Shown here piece after piece: positions 53,014-64,000 of a DNA stretch of 64,000 nucleotides (the stretch's first letter is position 1; every line of letters begins with the position of its first letter). Source of the stretch: an uncultured Victivallaceae bacterium (GTDB taxonomy: Bacteria > Verrucomicrobiota > Lentisphaeria > Victivallales > Victivallaceae). A model generated the notes under the pieces. That model saw only the letters and a list, made by a program, of their open reading frames with translations, searched no databases and had not been told where the DNA came from. The position numbers were made by a program, and so were the translations under genes. Location: NCBI GenBank assembly GCA_944389925.1, contig CALXOD010000051.1, forward strand, positions 124,001-188,000. Direction: 5' to 3'.

Positions 53014-53054
53014 CCAGAAAAAACTCCCGCATCTCCGTATAGGAAATGCGGGAG
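53014..53054 (-). terminator. Rho-independent terminator of the giant gene
   Basis: CTCCCGCAT (53024-53032) / ATGCGGGAG (53046-53054), 13-base loop, followed on the minus strand by TTTTTTCTGG. It lies 26 bases after the stop codon of the giant gene. Confidence 0.88.
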
Positions 53055-53080: not shown

Positions 53081-56000
53081 TCAGCAGGCCAGGAATTCCT
53101 CCAACGCCTGACCGGCTTCTCCATCGAACCGGGCATTGAACGCTGCAGCGCGATCCGCCAGCGCAGCGAACAATCCAGCCGCCGGGCTCGGGGTATTGCC
53201 GACAAACGAAGTGTATTTCGGCTTTGCTGTACCACGGCACTGATCGGCCAGGAACTGCTGTTCCGTAGCATAGGTACTGTAGATGGTCTTGGCCGTCACG
53301 GTACCGGTGTTGGTCAACACGCTCGAATCCATCCGGAAATCCTTGCTGATCGACACGGTTCCATTATTGAAAATGTTGGCCCCATGCAGAGTCAGAGTAT
53401 TCTTGACCGTCATCTTGCCGTAGTTGCTCACCGAGCCAGTGATGTCAGCATTCGTTGCGGTGAAGCTCGAGCCGGCAGTATTGATAACGCCGCCAAGCAT
53501 CTTCGCCAATCCGGAAGCACTGAATGTTCCTTCATTCCGGAACTCGCCATAAACCTGCAGCTCCTTGACCGACATCTTGCCGATCTTGTTGGTCAAACTG
53601 GCGTCGCTCACAGCACTATTGCCAATCGTAACCTGAGCCGAAGTCGCGTTGAATGTTCCTTCATTCTGGAAATCAGCCGTCGACTGAGCACCCGACTGAC
53701 CGGCAACGTTCACGGAGGTACCACGCACCGTAACAATACCGCTATTGGTAATCGTTTCAGCACTCAGGCTACCGCCGGCCGTCAATGTACCGTAGTTTAC
53801 CAGCTGTTCGCCAACCGTCACCTGACCGGATTCAGCCACCTTGGAGTTGCTATTCACCGTCATCGTTCCGGCACGATTGGTCAAGCTTCCACCGACTTCC
53901 AACCGTCCAGTGTCAGCCACGCCGCTCACCGGAGTAATCGTCAGAGTCGCCTTCACCGTACTGCCGGTATTCCAGCCGTTGATCCAATCACCACCGACCG
54001 TCGCACCGACTGCCGTCAGAGAACCGGCAAGGTTTTCCACATTGCCGTCAACCGCCAGCATCCCGGTAGGTACATCTACGACAATGCCCTTCAGGCGGAT
54101 CGTACCACTGACTCCCTTGTTGGCGGAGTTGATCGAACCATTGATCAACTCTCCGTTACCGGCTATCGGAGCGCCACCACTGTCACGTCCCGTCAGCGAC
54201 AGATTGCCATCAGAAATCACAGTCATAACACCGTTGATCTTGACGCCCAGCGCCGTCAGCGACAGAGATTTATGATTCGTCACGTTACCGGACTCAGCCC
54301 CTGCTCCATCCACGTCGGCGAGCTCAAGACCACCAGCACTGATCGTCTTGGTATTGAGCAGGTTACCGCCACCAAGGTGGATTCCGCCATCCGCATTGCC
54401 CCAGACCACCAGCACCTGACTGTTGGCAGCATCCCGAATAGTGGTGTAGACCGCCTTGACCGTCAGCGTACCGGAGTTGGTAAGATCAGCAGCTCCACTC
54501 ATCGTCACTTCCGTGGCGGACACCGATCCGGTGTTGGTGAAACTGCCTTCGGCCAATGTAATCTGCCCGCTTCCAGTCGTCAGGAAATCCTTACCTCCGC
54601 CAACCTTGTTAAAGGTCACCCCTGTACCTTTGGCTGTAATCGTGCCGTTATTGACGATGGAGCCGGTACGCGACCCGTCGGGCAGCAGAGTTCCCGCGCC
54701 ATTCATCGTCACCGAACCGACACGGATCGATTTCCCCTTGGCGTTATAGAGGCTGCCTTCTTCTATCAGCAGTTCGCCGTTGGACACCAGTGTCGCATTC
54801 TGACCGCCCTCCACCCGGTTCACCACAGCCAGACCATTCAGGGCCAGAGTTGCTTCATTGTTCAAATCTCCGGTCAGAAGCGTCAGGGAACCGGCGGTAA
54901 ACGAGCCCTTCAAATTCGCCATCGAGCCATATACCGACACGCTGCCGTCACCACCGATCGCCACCTTCTGCACGCTGCCGGAGGTCACCAGTTTACTGGC
55001 TGCGGTAATATTCATCGTACCGCTGTTAACCAGTTCTCCGCCGCTGACATAGTTCGGCGCACCGCTGGTGCTGTCGAAGACACCGTTAATCTCCAGTCCG
55101 GTTGCCCGAACCGTCTTGCCGGCATTGTTGGTGAAGTTGCCGTTCAGGGCAATCGTCCCTTCGGAAAGCTTCCACAAGCCACCGGAGATCGTCACCATGG
55201 TCGAAGAAATCGTCATCGAACCATTGTTGATGATGTCGCCGGTCGCAGCCGCACCATCCATAACAATCGAACCGGCTTTCATGGTACCGTTGTTATTAAG
55301 CGTTCCTTTTCCCTGGATTTCCAGCTGCCCACCGGAAACTGCTTCCACCGATTTCGCCTTCGTCGCCGTATCAGTCACAATCCGATATACCGGTGAAACG
55401 GTCAGCGTGCCGTAATTCAGCAGATTACCGTCCACCAAGGTAATATCCCCGGCAGTCAGGGATTTGCCCTTATTGTTTTCCAGATTGCCGGAACCGGTAA
55501 TTTCTATCGTACCGTACGACGTATAACTTTCGATGGTATGTGCCGGATCACTGGTATCCTTCACACGTTTGATACCGCTGATCGTTCCGTAGTTCTTCAG
55601 AGAGCCAACCGTAATCCGTTCCATCTGTCCACCGACGGACTGATAACCGTCATGGAGTGTCAGAGAGGTTCCGAGATACAGGACCGCCTTGTTGTACAGC
55701 TCTCCATACAGAACGATGTTTTCCGCCGACAGCTTTCCTCCCATATTCGAGATGGATCCAAAGGAATTGGAGTCAGCTTCGATCGACGTTGCCGACAACG
55801 TGCCGTAATTCAGGATGGACGCACCGCCGGTAAGCTCGATCGCATTCACGAAATTCTTGGTATCGAAGCCTTCCTTCATCGTTCCCCGGTTTTCCAGCAT
55901 ACCGCCGTTGACCGTAACCGCATCCACCTTGATCGTACCCTTATTGTAAAGGGTACCATCCACGTCAATGCCGCGCACCGTCAAAGTACCGGCTTCATTG

Positions 56001-59000
56001 CTGATACGGCTGTTCGCCAGACCACTGAAGTCAATGGTGCCATCCACCGTCAACTTGCTGCGGTTGATCAGCGTTGCACCGGTACCCGGCAAGACGGCTT
56101 CGCCCTGCGAATTCTGCTCGATGTTGCCGGAAACCGTCATGGTAGCTTTGTTGGTGATCGTACCGAACTGAACCACCATGCCGCCTGTAACCGTCATCGT
56201 GCCGGAGAGATGCTCCAGCTGACTCCAATCCAGCAACATCACCTGCCCTGCGGTCAGGGTCTTTCTGTTGGAAATCAACGAAGAGACGTTCAATACCTGT
56301 ACATCCCCAAGCGTTGCATCCGTATAACGCAGATCCGCATCCTCTGCCGTCAAGGTTCCGCTGACAGTCAGAGTCCCCTTATTGACCAGTTCAGCTTTGC
56401 CGATCAGGGCGGTATTGCTCATCAAACCGTTGAGAATCCCTTCGGCGAACTGGACATTCACCGTCTCTCCCTGTTCATTTTCGTAGGACAGACCGTTCAA
56501 CAGATATTCTCCATAAAGCGTACCGCCGCTGGAGAGCGTGACCGCCTGCGCTTCGAAAGTACCGCTGTTGGTGAATACCCCACCCTTCATATTCAACGTG
56601 CCGCCGACTACCATCTTGCCGGACAACAGATTGAACGCACCGGACGAGAGCACCGTAAAGGTTCCGTTTCCGAGATCCGTCAACGCCCCCGTACCCGCAT
56701 CGCTCGAAATACTGCCGTTGTTGTCGTAAGCCACATTATAGTCGAGCGTTACATCACCAGCGACATTGACCAGTGTAGCCTTGCTGCTCAGAGCACCAGC
56801 GTCGATCGAAGCAACCTGGAAGTTCCCCTTGAGGAAATTCAACGTTCCGGCGATATCTACCGCACCGAGATCGCTGATCACACCGCTCTTATTAGAGGCG
56901 GACAGTTGCAGCTCGCCAAACGTTCCCGTGGCATCCGACACAAATCCGGAAGCCTGAATCATCCCGGAAGCCGTCAATGCGATGTTCATCAGTCTGCCCT
57001 TCGCATCATAAACTTCCAGCACTCGGGCCTGGTCAAGAAGCATCAGATTGCCACTGACGCTCACCGATCCGCCAAGGCTGATCTCAGCATTGCCGAGACT
57101 ATCCACCGTCACATTCCGGAAACTCTTCAGGCCACCCAGATAGACCATGCCACCGGCCGTCAGATCCAAATCTTTGCTGGAACCGGAGAACGTACCATTG
57201 CCGGAGACATAACGCCCGGTAACCATATCAATGGTGCCGCCGATCACCAGGTCCCCATCGCTGTGCAGGGCCAGACTGGATCCCACGGCACTGGTCAGTT
57301 TAATGGTTCCGTTCAAAGTCAAGTCATGCGCCCAGTTCAGACTGGAGGTCAAGGTCACCGTACCGCCAAATTCCAACGCGCCGTCGAAATTCTGCAACAA
57401 GTCCTGATTGACGGTAATCGTCCCATAAAGAGCGACTGTACCGGCATTGCTGATAGTCTGATTCAGCATGCAGCTCAGTTTTCCGCCCGTCACGAACTTA
57501 AGTTTGGCGCCGTCTTCCACCGTAATCTGGCTGAAGGCATTGTCCGACAAGGTAATGTTGTTACGACCGAAATCAAAGCTCAGTTCACCACCGTTTTTCA
57601 CCACCAGAGCCAGCGCCGGAGCGGCACCGGGCTGTGTACCGGCTTCCCGGAAGTACGGGAGAGACTTCAGGCGGAAAACATTGCCCATACCACTCACGGT
57701 CAAATTCTGCAGATTTTCATCCAGGAACACCTGACCGGTGCCATTCCCAACAGTGGCATATCCAGTCAATTCCACGTTCTGCGCCAGAAATTCGATCGCG
57801 CTGGTCTTACCGGCTTCCAGAATCACGTTGCCAACAGAAACCGTGGCATCGCCAACCGATCCAAGGAGGATACTCCCTGCCGCTGTAACTTTGCCACTGT
57901 CCTCGGCCGTACCATCACCGAAAATACGTTCGTGTACCAGCAGATCTCCACGCGGTCCATTGCTGACAGCGTTGATCTTCAAGGTCACATTACGACCGAT
58001 TTCCAGCGACTTAAGCGCCAGATTGCCGGAGAAGGTCTTCGCACCGCCGCTCAGTGCCAGATGATCATAGTCGATGGCGTTCCCCAGATAATCCGTGTTG
58101 ATCACTGTCTGCGCCTTTTCTGCACTGTAAACGACCCGGGTCTCCGTACCATCCAGCAGGACACCGAGCTTACTATAGTTTGTGGTAGCCAATTCAAGGT
58201 TGCCGCCATCCATGACCACAACCCGACCGGCCAGAACCACGTTCGCAGCTACGGTAAACCAGCCCCCGTCTTTTACCACAATACTGCTGCGCGAAGCCTC
58301 AGACAACCAAGTCGGTCCCAGCGTCCAGTCTGCAACCAGAGTCCCCTTTTCTGTAAACTCTGCACTGACAGCCTGGAAAGTCTGACCATATCCGGTCATT
58401 TCACTGGTCGGCCGCTGGAAATCCGTCGCGGTATAAGCGTCTTTACCCGCGCCGAAATACGTCGTGTAATAGATCACTTCTCCGGTAGAGGAAACCACGC
58501 TCCGGGTCACCAGCTGGTTGATCACTCGATCTCCATGCGTAATGTTTACCGAAGAACCGTCCCCGATAAAGATGAACCGGGTATCCGCAGCATTCAAAAC
58601 GCCATCGGATTCCAGCAGATACATACCATTGGAACTGACCCACTGGGACTGCGTCAGGGCATTCCCCTTGAGATCGCCCTGAACGAAGTATAAATGCCGT
58701 TCCTGCTTTTCAAACGCCCCCACCGTCTTTCGGACATCAGTTTCATTCTGCCCGTCAAACATTTCCAACTGAGTTTGGTCCAGTTCGCCGGCGGACTGTG
58801 CCCGCTGCAGGAAGGTGCTCAAACCGGCGCCGTCATAGACGTAAACCGTCATCTGTTTGCCACCGTTGAAGGCCAGCTTGGTATCCAGCAACTGTGAATA
58901 TCCTGCCATGGTACCGGAAAAACGCGCCCAATCGCCACCATTTGCCGCGGCATTGAGATAGTAATTGCCGTTGGCATCGGTGGAACCGCCAGGCAGAATT

Positions 59001-62000
59001 TCCCGACCGCCGGTGCGGGACAATTTGCCGAACAGGTTATTCGCCGAATTCCCAAGGCTGCTCGTGTCATTGTACAGGAAAACATCGTCATGAATTCCAG
59101 ACGAAAGTGACAAGGCTCCGACAAAGTTCTGGGCAATCAACGAATTATTCGCCAGCAGATTGCCGGATACCATATAAATCCCGCCACCATTCCAGACCTG
59201 ACCGGATGCCGCACTTCCCGACAACGTCCAGCTGGACTGGTTGTTCGCGACCGTAACGAAATCCAACTTCACCTGATCAATGGAGTCGAAATAGACCCCA
59301 CCGCCGGCATTGGTTGCCGTATTGTTGGCCACTGTCGAGTTATACATGGTCAACGAACCGGTTTTCTGATAAATCCCGCCGCCATGACCGCCGGATTTGT
59401 TGTTACCTATCGTGGTATACTGGAAATTGGAATTCCCACTTTCCACATATACACCACCGCCACTGCCGCCCTGGCCACTGTTCGTCCGCGCGATATTGCC
59501 GATAATCGACACATTCGTCGCATTGAGCACCAGACCACCGTTGTCGTACCCCTTGGCGTAGATCCCGCCACCCAGCTGGGCCACACATCCGGTGACAACC
59601 ACATCGGTCAAGCTCAACATGCCGCGTTCCGAGTAGATCCCGCCGCCAAAACCACCACTTCCCGCCTGGGAATCAGAAATTTCCACATTCTCCAGCGTCA
59701 GATTCGCCACCGAGTAAATGGCGCCACCGCTGTTGAATGCCGCCAGACCACCGTTATTGGCACGGCCGCCACTGAGCGACAAGTTATACAAATTGACATC
59801 CAGCAACCGGTCTTCCGTACTCTTGATGTAGAAAATCCGGGAGTTCGCATTCGATGCCATCTTCAAGTTAACCATACCCGGCACCGGAGCATCCGATTCA
59901 GGCAGGAAGTTACCATTGATGGTGATGTTGCGCACAATCGACAATTCGCCCTGCAGCATAATAATCAACTGCCCCTGACTGTTCAGTTCACCGGAAACCG
60001 TACTGCCGTCAGCGCGCTTGGATCCATTGATCGCCCAGCCCGACTTGAATACCACTGTCGTACCGTCATCCGCCAGATACAGAGCTTCCCGCAATGTCAG
60101 ATCCGGCGATTCCCACAACGGCAGGTTGTTGGCAAAATCAAATCCGGTCCGATGATCCAAACTGTCTTTGCCCGATCCAACTACCAGCAGACTGATTGTT
60201 TCAAATGCACCAATATTAGTGGTATCGGTCACGTTTCCATTACCGTCTGTCAGACGGCTGACACCACGCTGGTCGGTGGCAAACGACCGGAATCCCAAGG
60301 CGGACAACGAGTCCAGATATTCCGTCGTCAGAATCCCGCCTTCCAGCGCGGAACTGCCGCCCAATACCCGATACGTCATCGTTTTTCCACCGTTGTAATC
60401 CATCGTGACTTCCAGCCGCAGATCGCTGATCCGGCCGAAATTCGTCTGAGAATAATCCAAATTCCCATCCGAATCGGTCGTGATTTCGCCTGTAACGTTG
60501 TAAAGCGAAGAATCATCCCAGTCAAATCCACCGGCCAGAGCGCCGTTGAAAGCACCGATCACATTGTGCGTGGCATCAAAACTTGTCGCCATCCGCACCA
60601 CATCGGAACCAACGTACACATCCCGCAATCCCACTCTGGGTTTGCTGCTGGCTATCTTCCCGGAATTTCCAGCTACCAGCGTATTGGCCATATACAGCGA
60701 ACTGCCCTGAGCGGAATAGAGTGCCGCCATATCATATCCCGGCGCCTGATTGTCCGCACCTTTGAGGATCGTCTGATTGTTGAAAATCGTATTATTGTAG
60801 CTGTAGAGAACACCACCGGACTTCGAATTCACCACCACACCAACACCGGTATCAGACCCGGCATTGTAGATGGCACCACCTTTACCGATGGAAGCCAGAG
60901 CAGTACTGTTCGCAATATTTTCCGCAATTGTGCTGTTGGCGATCTTCAGCACTGCACCGGTGGTATTGTAAATCCCGCCGCCGGCCACCCCCTGGGCACC
61001 TTCGTAGGTACTTCCCCACACCGCCGTGTTATAGGAAATATTCGACCGTTCCACCACCATGTAACCGGCATTGAAGAGCCCGCCACCGGCGCCCGCCAGA
61101 TTCCGGGGAACATAATTCTGACTGGCATTGGCGGTCACTGTATTGTGGTCAATCGTACAGTCATAGAGGTAAGCCATCCCCTGATAACCGTTAAACAGCC
61201 CACCGCCGTAACCGGAATTTACCTTGCTCGAATTCGTCAAGGCATTCGCGGCACTGTTTTCGGTCAGCCGGACGTTATTCAAGGTCAAAATACCGTTGTT
61301 CCAAATCCCGCCACCGTTTTCCATGTCGTTTTCTGCGGCATAGTAGACATCCTGAGCGGCCTTGCCCCCGGTAATCGTCAGATTGTTCAATACAACCGCA
61401 TGGGAACTGCCGAACGTAAACACCCGTTCGCTGCCGTTACCTTTGATAACGATCCGGTCATCAGCATCTTGAGCGCGATAGCTCAGACCGTACATATCCC
61501 CGATCACCAGATCCTTGCTGTTCCCATTGCTGAACCAGCCGCGGGCCACATAAATCTGCCCCTCCGTCAAATTGATCGTATTATCCTGCCCTGCGGCAAA
61601 GACGTCGGCATCAAATCCAATGGTCCCGGTTGTGGAAATCCGCAACGGATTTCCTTTGGCATCCCGCAACAGGTTCCCCTGATAATCCATCAGATATCCG
61701 AAAGAAGCCGGATTGTCTGCTGCCCCGGCATTTACGGTATAAATATTCTGAGCTGCTTGGGAAACTGCATCCTGCACCGTTCCCGACACTGCCTGGATAG
61801 TCGCCTTGATTCCGCTCACCAGACTGGAAACAAGAACCGCATTATCCAAGACTTCTCCGCCGGTCACAAACCGATATCCCAGAGGTGTCCCGGACGAGCT
61901 GGTAACCAGGTAGAGGTCTACACCGGTATAGTACCGGTTATAGTTTTCCAGCAGCTGATTGACCATCTGGAAATAATCCGTGTCGCCAGTGGTCAGATAA

Positions 62001-64000
62001 GACTCCAGAGCGTTGTTGGCCAGCTTCAACAATCCACTGCGGGAATCCACCCAATAAGTGGCCTCACGCAGGGTCAGCCCACTCCCACCGTAAGCCGCAT
62101 CCAGATAGTGGCCGTTGGCATCAGAGGTATACTTAATCTTTGAATCATCGCCCTTGCTGCTGACTTCCAGATAGAAGATCGGCTCAAAAGCACCGATGGA
62201 CGCCTTGGTTTTAGTCCCCTGCACCCATTTGTTTTTGGCACTGTCCCAGACCCAGGCCTTGGGATCCACCCGCAGATTCCCACGCTGGTCATACTTCACG
62301 CCGGATGCGGCCACCACATTATAAACCCAGCTCGCTTCACTGATAATAGCCAGCGACTGTGTCCGATAATTAGCGTGATAACCCAATTCAGTGTCCAGAT
62401 AAACATTCTTCTGGATAGCCGTGGATTCCTGTTCGGTCGCAGCAATCAATTTATGACCGTTTACCCAGCCCGAACCATTCGTCTGCGTAGCAGAGAGGGT
62501 CAACGCATTGTTGGTCCGACCGTCGGACCGGATACTGCGTTCCCACACTGCGGCATCCTTGTAATAATGGCTGTACAGGTTGTTCGACGTGGAGAAATTC
62601 ACATCGATAAACTTGTTCGTACCACCGGCATCCGCCAGGAAAATCTGATTGAACTGGTTGTTGGACACCATGCTCTGGTCAGCAGCACCACCGTTGTAGA
62701 TAATGGAATTCGAAACGTTCAGCGTGCTCTTCTGGACAGTATCTCCGGCAATATAAATCGCCGCACCCTTCCCGCGATTGTAAGCCAGCGAACTGAAATT
62801 GATCGTCAGCGTACCGGCATGCATATAGATGGCACCGCCCAATGCATAACTGCTGCCGTCAAAGCTCCCATTAAACGCCAGCGTGGAACTTTCGATCTTC
62901 AAAGTCCCGCGATCCAGATAGATCCCGCCGCCCATACCGAACTCGCCGGCGGCACTGTTCACCACGTTCGAGTTGATCCCGCTTCGCTCAATCGAAAGGA
63001 CATAGCCGGGATTCTGATTGGTAAAATAAATCCCGCCGCCCTTACCACTCACGGTTCCGGCAACCCAGCGGCCATCGCTGTCCAGGGCCCCTCCCGCCTC
63101 ATTGTTGGAAATTTCCACATCCGTCAGGTAAACATTCTGGGAATTTTCCACATACAAACCACCGCCGAATTCGCCGGCATGGTTATTCAGAATCTGCACG
63201 AAATCAATCGTCACATTGCCTTTGTTGTTCACCACGGCAATGGCACCACCCCCCACGCCGGCAAAGTTGCCCGAAAGCGAACTTTGAATGTTCACGCCTT
63301 TGGTCACCCCGGCTTCCTCTATAACAGTCTGAATAGATACAGAGCCGGTAGTGCCCGTGATATACAGAGCGCCGCCACGAAGCATGGCTACGTTTCCAGT
63401 AAAATCGCACCATTCAAACGACAGCGCATCCTTCCCGGAAATATTCCCGTTCGTAAAATAAATACCGCCACCGTTTTCCGCCGCGATATTGCCTGCCACA
63501 TCCGTACGGTAGAAGTAAATGGTATCAGGCTGCAACCCCTTGGCGTCGATGAACACTCCGCCACCGGAGCCGCTTAACGCCTGGTTTCCAGCATATATCT
63601 CATAAGAGATATCACCGATGAAGAACTGCGTACGTCCATTCGCACCAATACTCGACTGGTGGAATTCCAACTGCCCCGTGGAACTGTAAATCCCACCGCC
63701 GGCACCAGTGGCGACATTGCCATAACAACGGACCATAGACCCCGGGGAACCATCCCGGTCGACCGAGTCTCCAATAAACTGGAATACACCGGCATTATAA
63801 ATCCCGCCGCCATTCCCAACCCCGATAATCTGATCCAATCCTCCTTGCGAAGTCAACGTATAGGAGCCGGCAATATTGGCAATGATTCCGTTTTCCCATT
63901 TCAAGAAGTTTCCAGATGTCGTCTTCGTAGTGAAGAGAAGCGAACCGGAGTTGTAGATCCCGCCTCCGTCCTTGTCCGCCCGGTTCCCGGCCACCAGAAC
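53081..64000 (-). CDS. Giant beta-helix surface protein (5' partial, >3600 residues)
   Basis: 3639 residues are visible; the frame is open through the window edge, so the N-terminus is missing. Residues ~1-1750 are right-handed beta-helix, built from GGGIYN/GGGI-Y/F repeats and IGAFE...TLREA module boundaries seen at ~613, ~1270 and (IGAFE only) ~1745, typical of CSLREA/choice-of-anchor-Q surface proteins. Residues ~1900-2150 are a spacer with VVKDGGWFTVAANVV-like strands. From ~2200 to ~3570, dozens of short repeats such as LTNTGTVTAKTI and NNGTMKAGSIVMDG form a haemagglutinin-like helix. The C-terminus (GLFAALADRAAAFNARFDGE ... EEFLAC) has no autotransporter barrel, LPxTG, PEP-CTERM or T9SS signature. 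Probably exported and adhesive; the anchoring route is unknown. Confidence 0.82.
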   Translation of the reverse strand, partial: VLVAGNRADKDGGGIYNSGSLLFTTKTTSGNFLKWENGIIANIAGSYTLTSQGGLDQIIGVGNGGGIYNAGVFQFIGDSVDRDGSPGSMVRCYGNVATGAGGGIYSSTGQLEFHQSSIGANGRTQFFIGDISYEIYAGNQALSGSGGGVFIDAKGLQPDTIYFYRTDVAGNIAAENGGGIYFTNGNISGKDALSFEWCDFTGNVAMLRGGALYITGTTGSVSIQTVIEEAGVTKGVNIQSSLSGNFAGVGGGAIAVVNNKGNVTIDFVQILNNHAGEFGGGLYVENSQNVYLTDVEISNNEAGGALDSDGRWVAGTVSGKGGGIYFTNQNPGYVLSIERSGINSNVVNSAAGEFGMGGGIYLDRGTLKIESSTLAFNGSFDGSSYALGGAIYMHAGTLTINFSSLAYNRGKGAAIYIAGDTVQKSTLNVSNSIIYNGGAADQSMVSNNQFNQIFLADAGGTNKFIDVNFSTSNNLYSHYYKDAAVWERSIRSDGRTNNALTLSATQTNGSGWVNGHKLIAATEQESTAIQKNVYLDTELGYHANYRTQSLAIISEASWVYNVVAASGVKYDQRGNLRVDPKAWVWDSAKNKWVQGTKTKASIGAFEPIFYLEVSSKGDDSKIKYTSDANGHYLDAAYGGSGLTLREATYWVDSRSGLLKLANNALESYLTTGDTDYFQMVNQLLENYNRYYTGVDLYLVTSSSGTPLGYRFVTGGEVLDNAVLVSSLVSGIKATIQAVSGTVQDAVSQAAQNIYTVNAGAADNPASFGYLMDYQGNLLRDAKGNPLRISTTGTIGFDADVFAAGQDNTINLTEGQIYVARGWFSNGNSKDLVIGDMYGLSYRAQDADDRIVIKGNGSERVFTFGSSHAVVLNNLTITGGKAAQDVYYAAENDMENGGGIWNNGILTLNNVRLTENSAANALTNSSKVNSGYGGGLFNGYQGMAYLYDCTIDHNTVTANASQNYVPRNLAGAGGGLFNAGYMVVERSNISYNTAVWGSTYEGAQGVAGGGIYNTTGAVLKIANSTIAENIANSTALASIGKGGAIYNAGSDTGVGVVVNSKSGGVLYSYNNTIFNNQTILKGADNQAPGYDMAALYSAQGSSLYMANTLVAGNSGKIASSKPRVGLRDVYVGSDVVRMATSFDATHNVIGAFNGALAGGFDWDDSSLYNVTGEITTDSDGNLDYSQTNFGRISDLRLEVTMDYNGGKTMTYRVLGGSSALEGGILTTEYLDSLSALGFRSFATDQRGVSRLTDGNGNVTDTTNIGAFETISLLVVGSGKDSLDHRTGFDFANNLPLWESPDLTLREALYLADDGTTVVFKSGWAINGSKRADGSTVSGELNSQGQLIIMLQGELSIVRNITINGNFLPESDAPVPGMVNLKMASNANSRIFYIKSTEDRLLDVNLYNLSLSGGRANNGGLAAFNSGGAIYSVANLTLENVEISDSQAGSGGFGGGIYSERGMLSLTDVVVTGCVAQLGGGIYAKGYDNGGLVLNATNVSIIGNIARTNSGQGGSGGGVYVESGNSNFQYTTIGNNKSGGHGGGIYQKTGSLTMYNSTVANNTATNAGGGVYFDSIDQVKLDFVTVANNQSSWTLSGSAASGQVWNGGGIYMVSGNLLANNSLIAQNFVGALSLSSGIHDDVFLYNDTSSLGNSANNLFGKLSRTGGREILPGGSTDANGNYYLNAAANGGDWARFSGTMAGYSQLLDTKLAFNGGKQMTVYVYDGAGLSTFLQRAQSAGELDQTQLEMFDGQNETDVRKTVGAFEKQERHLYFVQGDLKGNALTQSQWVSSNGMYLLESDGVLNAADTRFIFIGDGSSVNITHGDRVINQLVTRSVVSSTGEVIYYTTYFGAGKDAYTATDFQRPTSEMTGYGQTFQAVSAEFTEKGTLVADWTLGPTWLSEASRSSIVVKDGGWFTVAANVVLAGRVVVMDGGNLELATTNYSKLGVLLDGTETRVVYSAEKAQTVINTDYLGNAIDYDHLALSGGAKTFSGNLALKSLEIGRNVTLKINAVSNGPRGDLLVHERIFGDGTAEDSGKVTAAGSILLGSVGDATVSVGNVILEAGKTSAIEFLAQNVELTGYATVGNGTGQVFLDENLQNLTVSGMGNVFRLKSLPYFREAGTQPGAAPALALVVKNGGELSFDFGRNNITLSDNAFSQITVEDGAKLKFVTGGKLSCMLNQTISNAGTVALYGTITVNQDLLQNFDGALEFGGTVTLTSSLNWAHDLTLNGTIKLTSAVGSSLALHSDGDLVIGGTIDMVTGRYVSGNGTFSGSSKDLDLTAGGMVYLGGLKSFRNVTVDSLGNAEISLGGSVSVSGNLMLLDQARVLEVYDAKGRLMNIALTASGMIQASGFVSDATGTFGELQLSASNKSGVISDLGAVDIAGTLNFLKGNFQVASIDAGALSSKATLVNVAGDVTLDYNVAYDNNGSISSDAGTGALTDLGNGTFTVLSSGAFNLLSGKMVVGGTLNMKGGVFTNSGTFEAQAVTLSSGGTLYGEYLLNGLSYENEQGETVNVQFAEGILNGLMSNTALIGKAELVNKGTLTVSGTLTAEDADLRYTDATLGDVQVLNVSSLISNRKTLTAGQVMLLDWSQLEHLSGTMTVTGGMVVQFGTITNKATMTVSGNIEQNSQGEAVLPGTGATLINRSKLTVDGTIDFSGLANSRISNEAGTLTVRGIDVDGTLYNKGTIKVDAVTVNGGMLENRGTMKEGFDTKNFVNAIELTGGASILNYGTLSATSIEADSNSFGSISNMGGKLSAENIVLYGELYNKAVLYLGTSLTLHDGYQSVGGQMERITVGSLKNYGTISGIKRVKDTSDPAHTIESYTSYGTIEITGSGNLENNKGKSLTAGDITLVDGNLLNYGTLTVSPVYRIVTDTATKAKSVEAVSGGQLEIQGKGTLNNNGTMKAGSIVMDGAAATGDIINNGSMTISSTMVTISGGLWKLSEGTIALNGNFTNNAGKTVRATGLEINGVFDSTSGAPNYVSGGELVNSGTMNITAASKLVTSGSVQKVAIGGDGSVSVYGSMANLKGSFTAGSLTLLTGDLNNEATLALNGLAVVNRVEGGQNATLVSNGELLIEEGSLYNAKGKSIRVGSVTMNGAGTLLPDGSRTGSIVNNGTITAKGTGVTFNKVGGGKDFLTTGSGQITLAEGSFTNTGSVSATEVTMSGAADLTNSGTLTVKAVYTTIRDAANSQVLVVWGNADGGIHLGGGNLLNTKTISAGGLELADVDGAGAESGNVTNHKSLSLTALGVKINGVMTVISDGNLSLTGRDSGGAPIAGNGELINGSINSANKGVSGTIRLKGIVVDVPTGMLAVDGNVENLAGSLTAVGATVGGDWINGWNTGSTVKATLTITPVSGVADTGRLEVGGSLTNRAGTMTVNSNSKVAESGQVTVGEQLVNYGTLTAGGSLSAETITNSGIVTVRGTSVNVAGQSGAQSTADFQNEGTFNATSAQVTIGNSAVSDASLTNKIGKMSVKELQVYGEFRNEGTFSASGLAKMLGGVINTAGSSFTATNADITGSVSNYGKMTVKNTLTLHGANIFNNGTVSISKDFRMDSSVLTNTGTVTAKTIYSTYATEQQFLADQCRGTAKPKYTSFVGNTPSPAAGLFAALADRAAAFNARFDGEAGQALEEFLAC

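Follow-up and report, generated by a model that had tools for sequence, protein, structure and literature searches.

A giant beta-solenoid-like protein of a Victivallaceae bacterium with a LEPR-XLL-like leader, a conserved C-terminal helix and a candidate M50-HlyD export module

Bacteria of this group commonly encode giant proteins, thousands of residues long, for most of which no export route has been assigned. The LEPR-XLL proteins (NF012209) are very large and repetitive, with a short motif among their first ~30 residues; LEPR-XLL has been named in passing as the N-terminal domain of a ~8,000-aa Vibrio protein (PMC10868602), and it also occurs in PMC9611531. In the open-access literature that we searched, no function is assigned to the LEPR-XLL domain and no paper links it to an adaptor/M50-HlyD module; PqqD, HlyD and M50 are never found together there, nor are three of peptidase M50, HlyD, TolC and giant protein. 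A second family of relevance is DUF4347, which has a relative of solved structure in Tce1 (PA0256, PDB 9QPE); Tce1 is described as a putative cysteine protease, and its His/Cys pair is named (PMC13323088).

The window analysed here is a stretch of 64,000 nucleotides (G000:C51:124001-188000) on a 206,134-bp contig of a 2.8-Mb draft genome (G000). The closest relatives with a name place this gut-type bacterium in Lentisphaeria/Victivallales. The minus-strand frame of the window is open throughout 53081-64000, and further along the contig it stays open up to an in-frame stop at 67052 (extended coordinate), with the candidate start ATG at 66985 (G000:C51:190985) or 66979, which gives a full-length protein of ~4,632-4,634 aa. 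The same protein is encoded in same-genus genomes (98% in G001; in G002 the tail is 85% identical and the frame 3,671 aa long), so the frame is more than chance. Long ORFs on the opposite strand (670, 1,051 and 919 aa; window 53384-62143, plus strand) resemble shadow ORFs of repetitive coding sequence. The features are as follows, with positions above 64,000 being extended coordinates:

53018..53054, minus strand: putative intrinsic terminator directly past the stop codon, read from the sequence (CTCCCGCAT...ATGCGGGAG, then TTTTTT)
53081..64000, minus strand: in-window part of the giant, putative exoprotein, 3,639 codons plus stop, with the N-terminus beyond the window
53084..53131, minus strand: conserved C-terminal tail, RFDGEAGQALEEFLAC-stop, fitting the motif F-K/R-S/D-D/E-h-D/E-x-x-L-D/E-x-h-L-A-x
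53120..53275, minus strand: solenoid-to-tail linker, predicted disordered, pLDDT mostly below 50
53276..53923, minus strand: modelled C-terminal beta-solenoid repeats, pLDDT mostly 65-97
60197..60403, minus strand: choice-of-anchor Q domain NF041518, visible residues 1200-1268, 31.2 bits against a cut-off of 25
~65730-66720, minus strand: two DUF4347 domains, 206 bits
~66970, minus strand: LEPR-XLL-like leader MDMYQLEDRILFDGAA, NF012209 match at residues 5-18
67167-68732, minus strand: TolC-type outer-membrane, lipoprotein-like gene directly upstream of the giant, OEP 91.3 bits

The putative terminator stands right behind the stop codon of the giant gene, and therefore no adaptor or M50 gene would be co-transcribed downstream.

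The body of the protein agrees with the preliminary description, which had read one unbroken frame of more than 3600 residues over the last 11 kb, had predicted a long fibrous beta-helix protein from the repeats, and had held that the C-terminus is not an autotransporter barrel, sortase, PEP-CTERM or T9SS signal. Searches of the visible part with Pfam and NCBIfam gave no family of the barrel, sortase, PEP-CTERM or T9SS kind; NF041518 is the only NCBIfam match, and Pfam and PDB sequence searches returned nothing, including no RTX repeats and no PMP repeats. AlphaFold2 was run on the last 280 aa with an alignment made only of the protein's own non-overlapping repeat segments, which replaced a self-alignment from overlapping windows that was unusable as folding input. 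The model has beta-solenoid-like strands over the first ~216 of these 280 aa (pLDDT up to 97) and, behind the disordered linker, a C-terminal helix predicted at low confidence; the same description had anticipated a beta-helix followed by a small helical cap. Foldseek with this model found no significant match in the PDB (best E 0.35), the weak matches being mostly beta-solenoid proteins. Judged on its last 280 aa, the window protein is by prediction a beta-solenoid protein.

The tail is a ~16-residue acidic amphipathic helix that recurs in 24 of 30 leader-bearing proteins, counted as distinct C-termini scoring at least as high as the window protein with a leave-one-group-out profile, and on other giants as well; several of the remaining six C-termini are visibly broken or doubtful frames. 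Of the true tails, that of the window protein scores lowest in the leave-one-out test (2.2 bits), whose background still contained giant fragments, so that its false-positive fractions are overstated. When the tail model was compared with 1,080 other C-termini, each of the best 15 matches proved to be the 3' portion of a long ORF. Fourteen of these ORFs are truncated by the 5' end of their locus, and Ser/Thr/Asn/Gly accounts for 27-47% of the 15 (most, not all, strongly enriched); since the 15 include a same-genus orthologue (L031) and a few loci overlapping training proteins, they are an independent recovery only in part. Among matches of other kinds the best reaches 9.2 bits; the window protein itself has 18.8 bits with the full model, whose training set included it. 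A conserved tail on many giant proteins had been named beforehand as what would support a new sorting signal, and such recurrence was found. The helical tail finishing with Cys was also read correctly, and the Cys is real, but it falls outside the conserved signal: among the 30 relatives it is common only to G056, and a role of the C-terminal Cys as anchor was rejected on this lack of conservation. The C-terminal helix may instead be an uncleaved export signal.

Two further observations concern the giants of relatives. At G039:C15:9585-58136 (L040-L042), an unbroken leader-bearing ORF of 16,183 aa (48.6 kb) ends in the family tail; the flanking sequence examined showed neither TolC nor M50 genes. 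Apparent frameshifts, through assembly error or real breakage, split leader-bearing giants at L085:3620-15632 (G020:C2), G026:C9 and G026:C12, where the conserved tail stands on a later ORF or ahead of a read-through extension.

Extension past 64000, proposed earlier as a way to recover the N-terminus and a signal peptide, delivered the former and, in place of the latter, a LEPR-XLL-like leader followed by DUF4347. The protein begins MDMYQLEDRILFDGAAIVDVAAAAAAAAEQQ, in which inspection by eye finds no positively charged start and no typical n-h-c pattern of a Sec signal. The profile NF012209 scores the leader at 13.9 bits against a cut-off of 17, and the leaders of relatives reach 12.6-14.5 bits where matched, all below that cut-off; the leader is LEPR-XLL-like only, the curated cut-off not being reached. 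Its position at residues 5-18 of a very large repetitive 4,634-aa protein fits the LEPR-XLL habit. DUF4347 (PF14252) is found in two stretches with 206 bits, far above the gathering cut-off of 24.6. A His-Gly and a Cys position are invariant across ten aligned DUF4347 domains; the second copy in the window protein keeps this His/Cys pair and the first is without it. The DUF4347 domains are cysteine-protease-like. Other matches in the first 1,100 aa are weak hexapeptide-type families only. This region contains no TPS domain of two-partner secretion; the neighbouring gene is an OEP, and no TpsB partner was found.

Beyond the TolC-type gene, the next three upstream genes are metabolic; of the type I components, the locus has the TolC-type gene, and ABC and HlyD are absent from it. 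A paralogue locus on contig C65 of the same genome combines in one run a TolC gene, a leader/DUF4347 protein, MFP1, MFP2 and M50-HlyD, in which the substrate (2,090 aa) has the leader, DUF4347 and PMP repeats, the two adaptors are HlyD-type, and the M50-HlyD fusion has 690 aa. HExxH is invariant in a first alignment of M50-HlyD proteins and H-E-x-A-H in a second. The AlphaFold model of M50-HlyD (pLDDT 83.6) opens with a beta3-alpha3 arrangement and continues with membrane-type helices and then a MacA/MexA-like adaptor half (C-half). PqqD profiles match weakly (E 0.014, below the gathering score, and 0.0048), and this, with the modelled topology, suggests that the N-terminal domain is PqqD/RRE-like. 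No recognisable ATPase is found in the MFP1/MFP2/M50-HlyD module. A second MFP1-MFP2-M50 set is present at G000:C23:12850-17271 with no giant alongside. In the M50 tree the C65-type genes form one clade (support 1.0), and the C23 gene groups with the M50 genes of genomes bearing the MYQLEDRILFDGAA leader form, as in the window protein. Because of this grouping by leader subtype, the unlinked C23 set is likely to be the partner module of the window giant.

Across genomes, leader-bearing proteins are strongly tied to the MFP1/MFP2/M50-HlyD module, with which they often share an operon. In a set of 61 genomes the leader was searched by a back-translated pattern, which was positive in 28 genomes; the reversed pattern, used as a control, gave a single match. 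All 28 leader-positive genomes have M50-HlyD, as do 9 of the 33 leader-negative ones (Fisher 7e-10; 4.5e-8 at genus level), in tests that ignore phylogeny and with many loci from related draft genomes. Of 34 leader loci with enough upstream sequence, 15 have TolC as the immediate upstream neighbour, and some module gene is within 15 kb of the leader in 21 of 37 loci, many of the others ending at contig edges. A wider survey, outside the order, took in 289 genomes of the phylum and used the classical LEPR..LLS pattern, which occurs in 13/29 M50-positive and 10/187 M50-negative genomes (p=1.4e-7, again without regard to phylogeny); proteins above the NF012209 cut-off adjoin module genes there in G296, G176, G135 and G087. 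The operon order of leader and module genes recurs in divergent families. G105 is a counterexample, having leader, DUF4347 and TolC with no M50 match, and a search for the LEDR/LEER leader form in the three outlying M50 genomes behind L180, L181 and L183 gave no match. A protein of ~85 aa is encoded beside the TolC/adaptor genes of M50 sets (L168:7042-7281, L183:115-354, L036:15619-15831) and also just upstream of the HlyB-type ABC gene in G015, G019, G046 and G056; no Pfam family matches it convincingly, and the own-genome loci examined yielded no copy.

We consider it fairly probable that the window gene encodes a giant beta-solenoid surface or exo-protein, exported independently of Sec, in a type I-like manner, by way of a TolC-type channel and with a signal at each end. 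The uncleaved C-terminal helix would act as the export signal, the PqqD/RRE-like N-terminal domain of M50-HlyD would bind the leader, and its HExxH site would cut it; the HlyD half would dock with MFP1, MFP2 and TolC, and DUF4347 would trim or anchor the fibre after export. We infer that the module itself exports the giant, rather than merely processing or anchoring it, and all functional links invoked here are genomic associations. The preliminary description had held that the export and anchoring route cannot be named; the leader with DUF4347, the upstream TolC-type gene and the adaptor/M50-HlyD tie point otherwise.

Ordinary type I secretion would also use the neighbouring TolC: an unlinked HlyB-type ABC transporter and HlyD would export the giant by its C-terminal helix, and the M50-HlyD module would only process, retain or anchor the N-terminus. 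The genome does encode such a pair, an HlyB-type ABC with a C39-like domain and an HlyD, on another contig than the giant (G000:C1:56306-60215), and in G015 such a pair lies immediately downstream of a giant with the tail. Five loci in gut Lentisphaeria (L201, L204, L210, L212 and L217) join ABC and/or HlyD, TolC, a leader/DUF4347 substrate, MFP1, MFP2 and M50-HlyD in one operon, and the ~85-aa accessory gene occurs in both the TolC/M50 and the ABC context. Against this, type I HlyD (TIGR01843) shows no association with the leader (18/28 leader-positive and 20/33 leader-negative genomes, p=0.80), and neither does the C39-like ABC (16/28 and 19/33). Type I HlyD is absent from ten leader-positive genomes, including the single-contig G012 and G057, G058 and G060 at 91-95% completeness. 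Lacking the leader association, ordinary ABC-type secretion is demoted as the general route; at the window locus the ABC route keeps some weight because of the genome's own ABC/HlyD pair and the several relatives that join ABC/HlyD with the M50 module, and we regard it here as rather unlikely.

A role of tail and leader as assembly or capping elements of the mature fibre, exported by Sec with an unrecognised signal, is very doubtful: the tail is modelled as a short helix behind a disordered linker and could cap a solenoid, but the by-eye inspection gives no Sec-type n-h-c signal, neither an outer-membrane barrel nor a TPS partner was found, and the TolC adjacency is recurrent. It is most improbable that leader and M50-HlyD co-occur through shared ancestry or gene islands instead of joint function, a reading to which the phylogeny-blind tests and the related draft genomes lend themselves, since the association persists when counted by genus and reappears outside the order with another leader form, the operon order recurs across divergent families, and even the unlinked C23 module groups with its leader subtype.

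Returning to the two-signal, module-dependent export of the giant, we tentatively propose a wider reading, in which LEPR-XLL might tag proteins for a TolC-dependent system of export or surface assembly that has not been described before and has no ABC ATPase of its own. An RRE-like/M50/adaptor fusion would read and cut the N-terminal leader and the C-terminal helix would start export, and the system would serve the largest proteins of Lentisphaeria and other Verrucomicrobiota. The LEPR-XLL motif, a defined gene set and a second signal at the other end make a testable export hypothesis, and the paired-end signals, together with a little-studied machine that contains an M50 membrane protease, suggest a way in which such bacteria could bring giant proteins to the cell surface. 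The cultured type strain Victivallis vadensis DSM 14823 carries three M50-HlyD loci (L192, L196 and L214), which makes the system testable.

Among known systems, the chlamydial polymorphic membrane proteins resemble the C65 paralogue in their PMP repeats; the window protein differs from them in that its visible part has neither a PMP repeat match nor an autotransporter barrel. With Tce1 the giant shares DUF4347 and a weak profile match to 9QPE (E 0.0012), but Tce1 is a small T6SS cargo effector, whereas DUF4347 here is N-terminal on a giant exoprotein and often duplicated. Daptide-type M50 proteases (NF041824) match residues 23-380 of M50-HlyD with 155 bits, below the cut-off of 300 bits; unlike them, the M50 domain here is fused to a MacA/MexA-like adaptor, and its proposed substrate is a giant protein, not a small peptide. 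The substrates of type I secretion (HlyA-, LapA-like) likewise have a C-terminal helical tail, no Sec signal and a TolC-type partner, and the operons of some relatives include ABC and HlyD; in contrast to them, no RTX repeats were found (common, not universal in type I), and the constant partner is the M50-HlyD fusion. To the LEPR-XLL proteins the window protein is related by the place of its leader in a very large repetitive protein and by the M50 module, which the classical form adjoins in other lineages of the phylum, while the leader here has its own form, LE[DE]R[VI]LF[DE].
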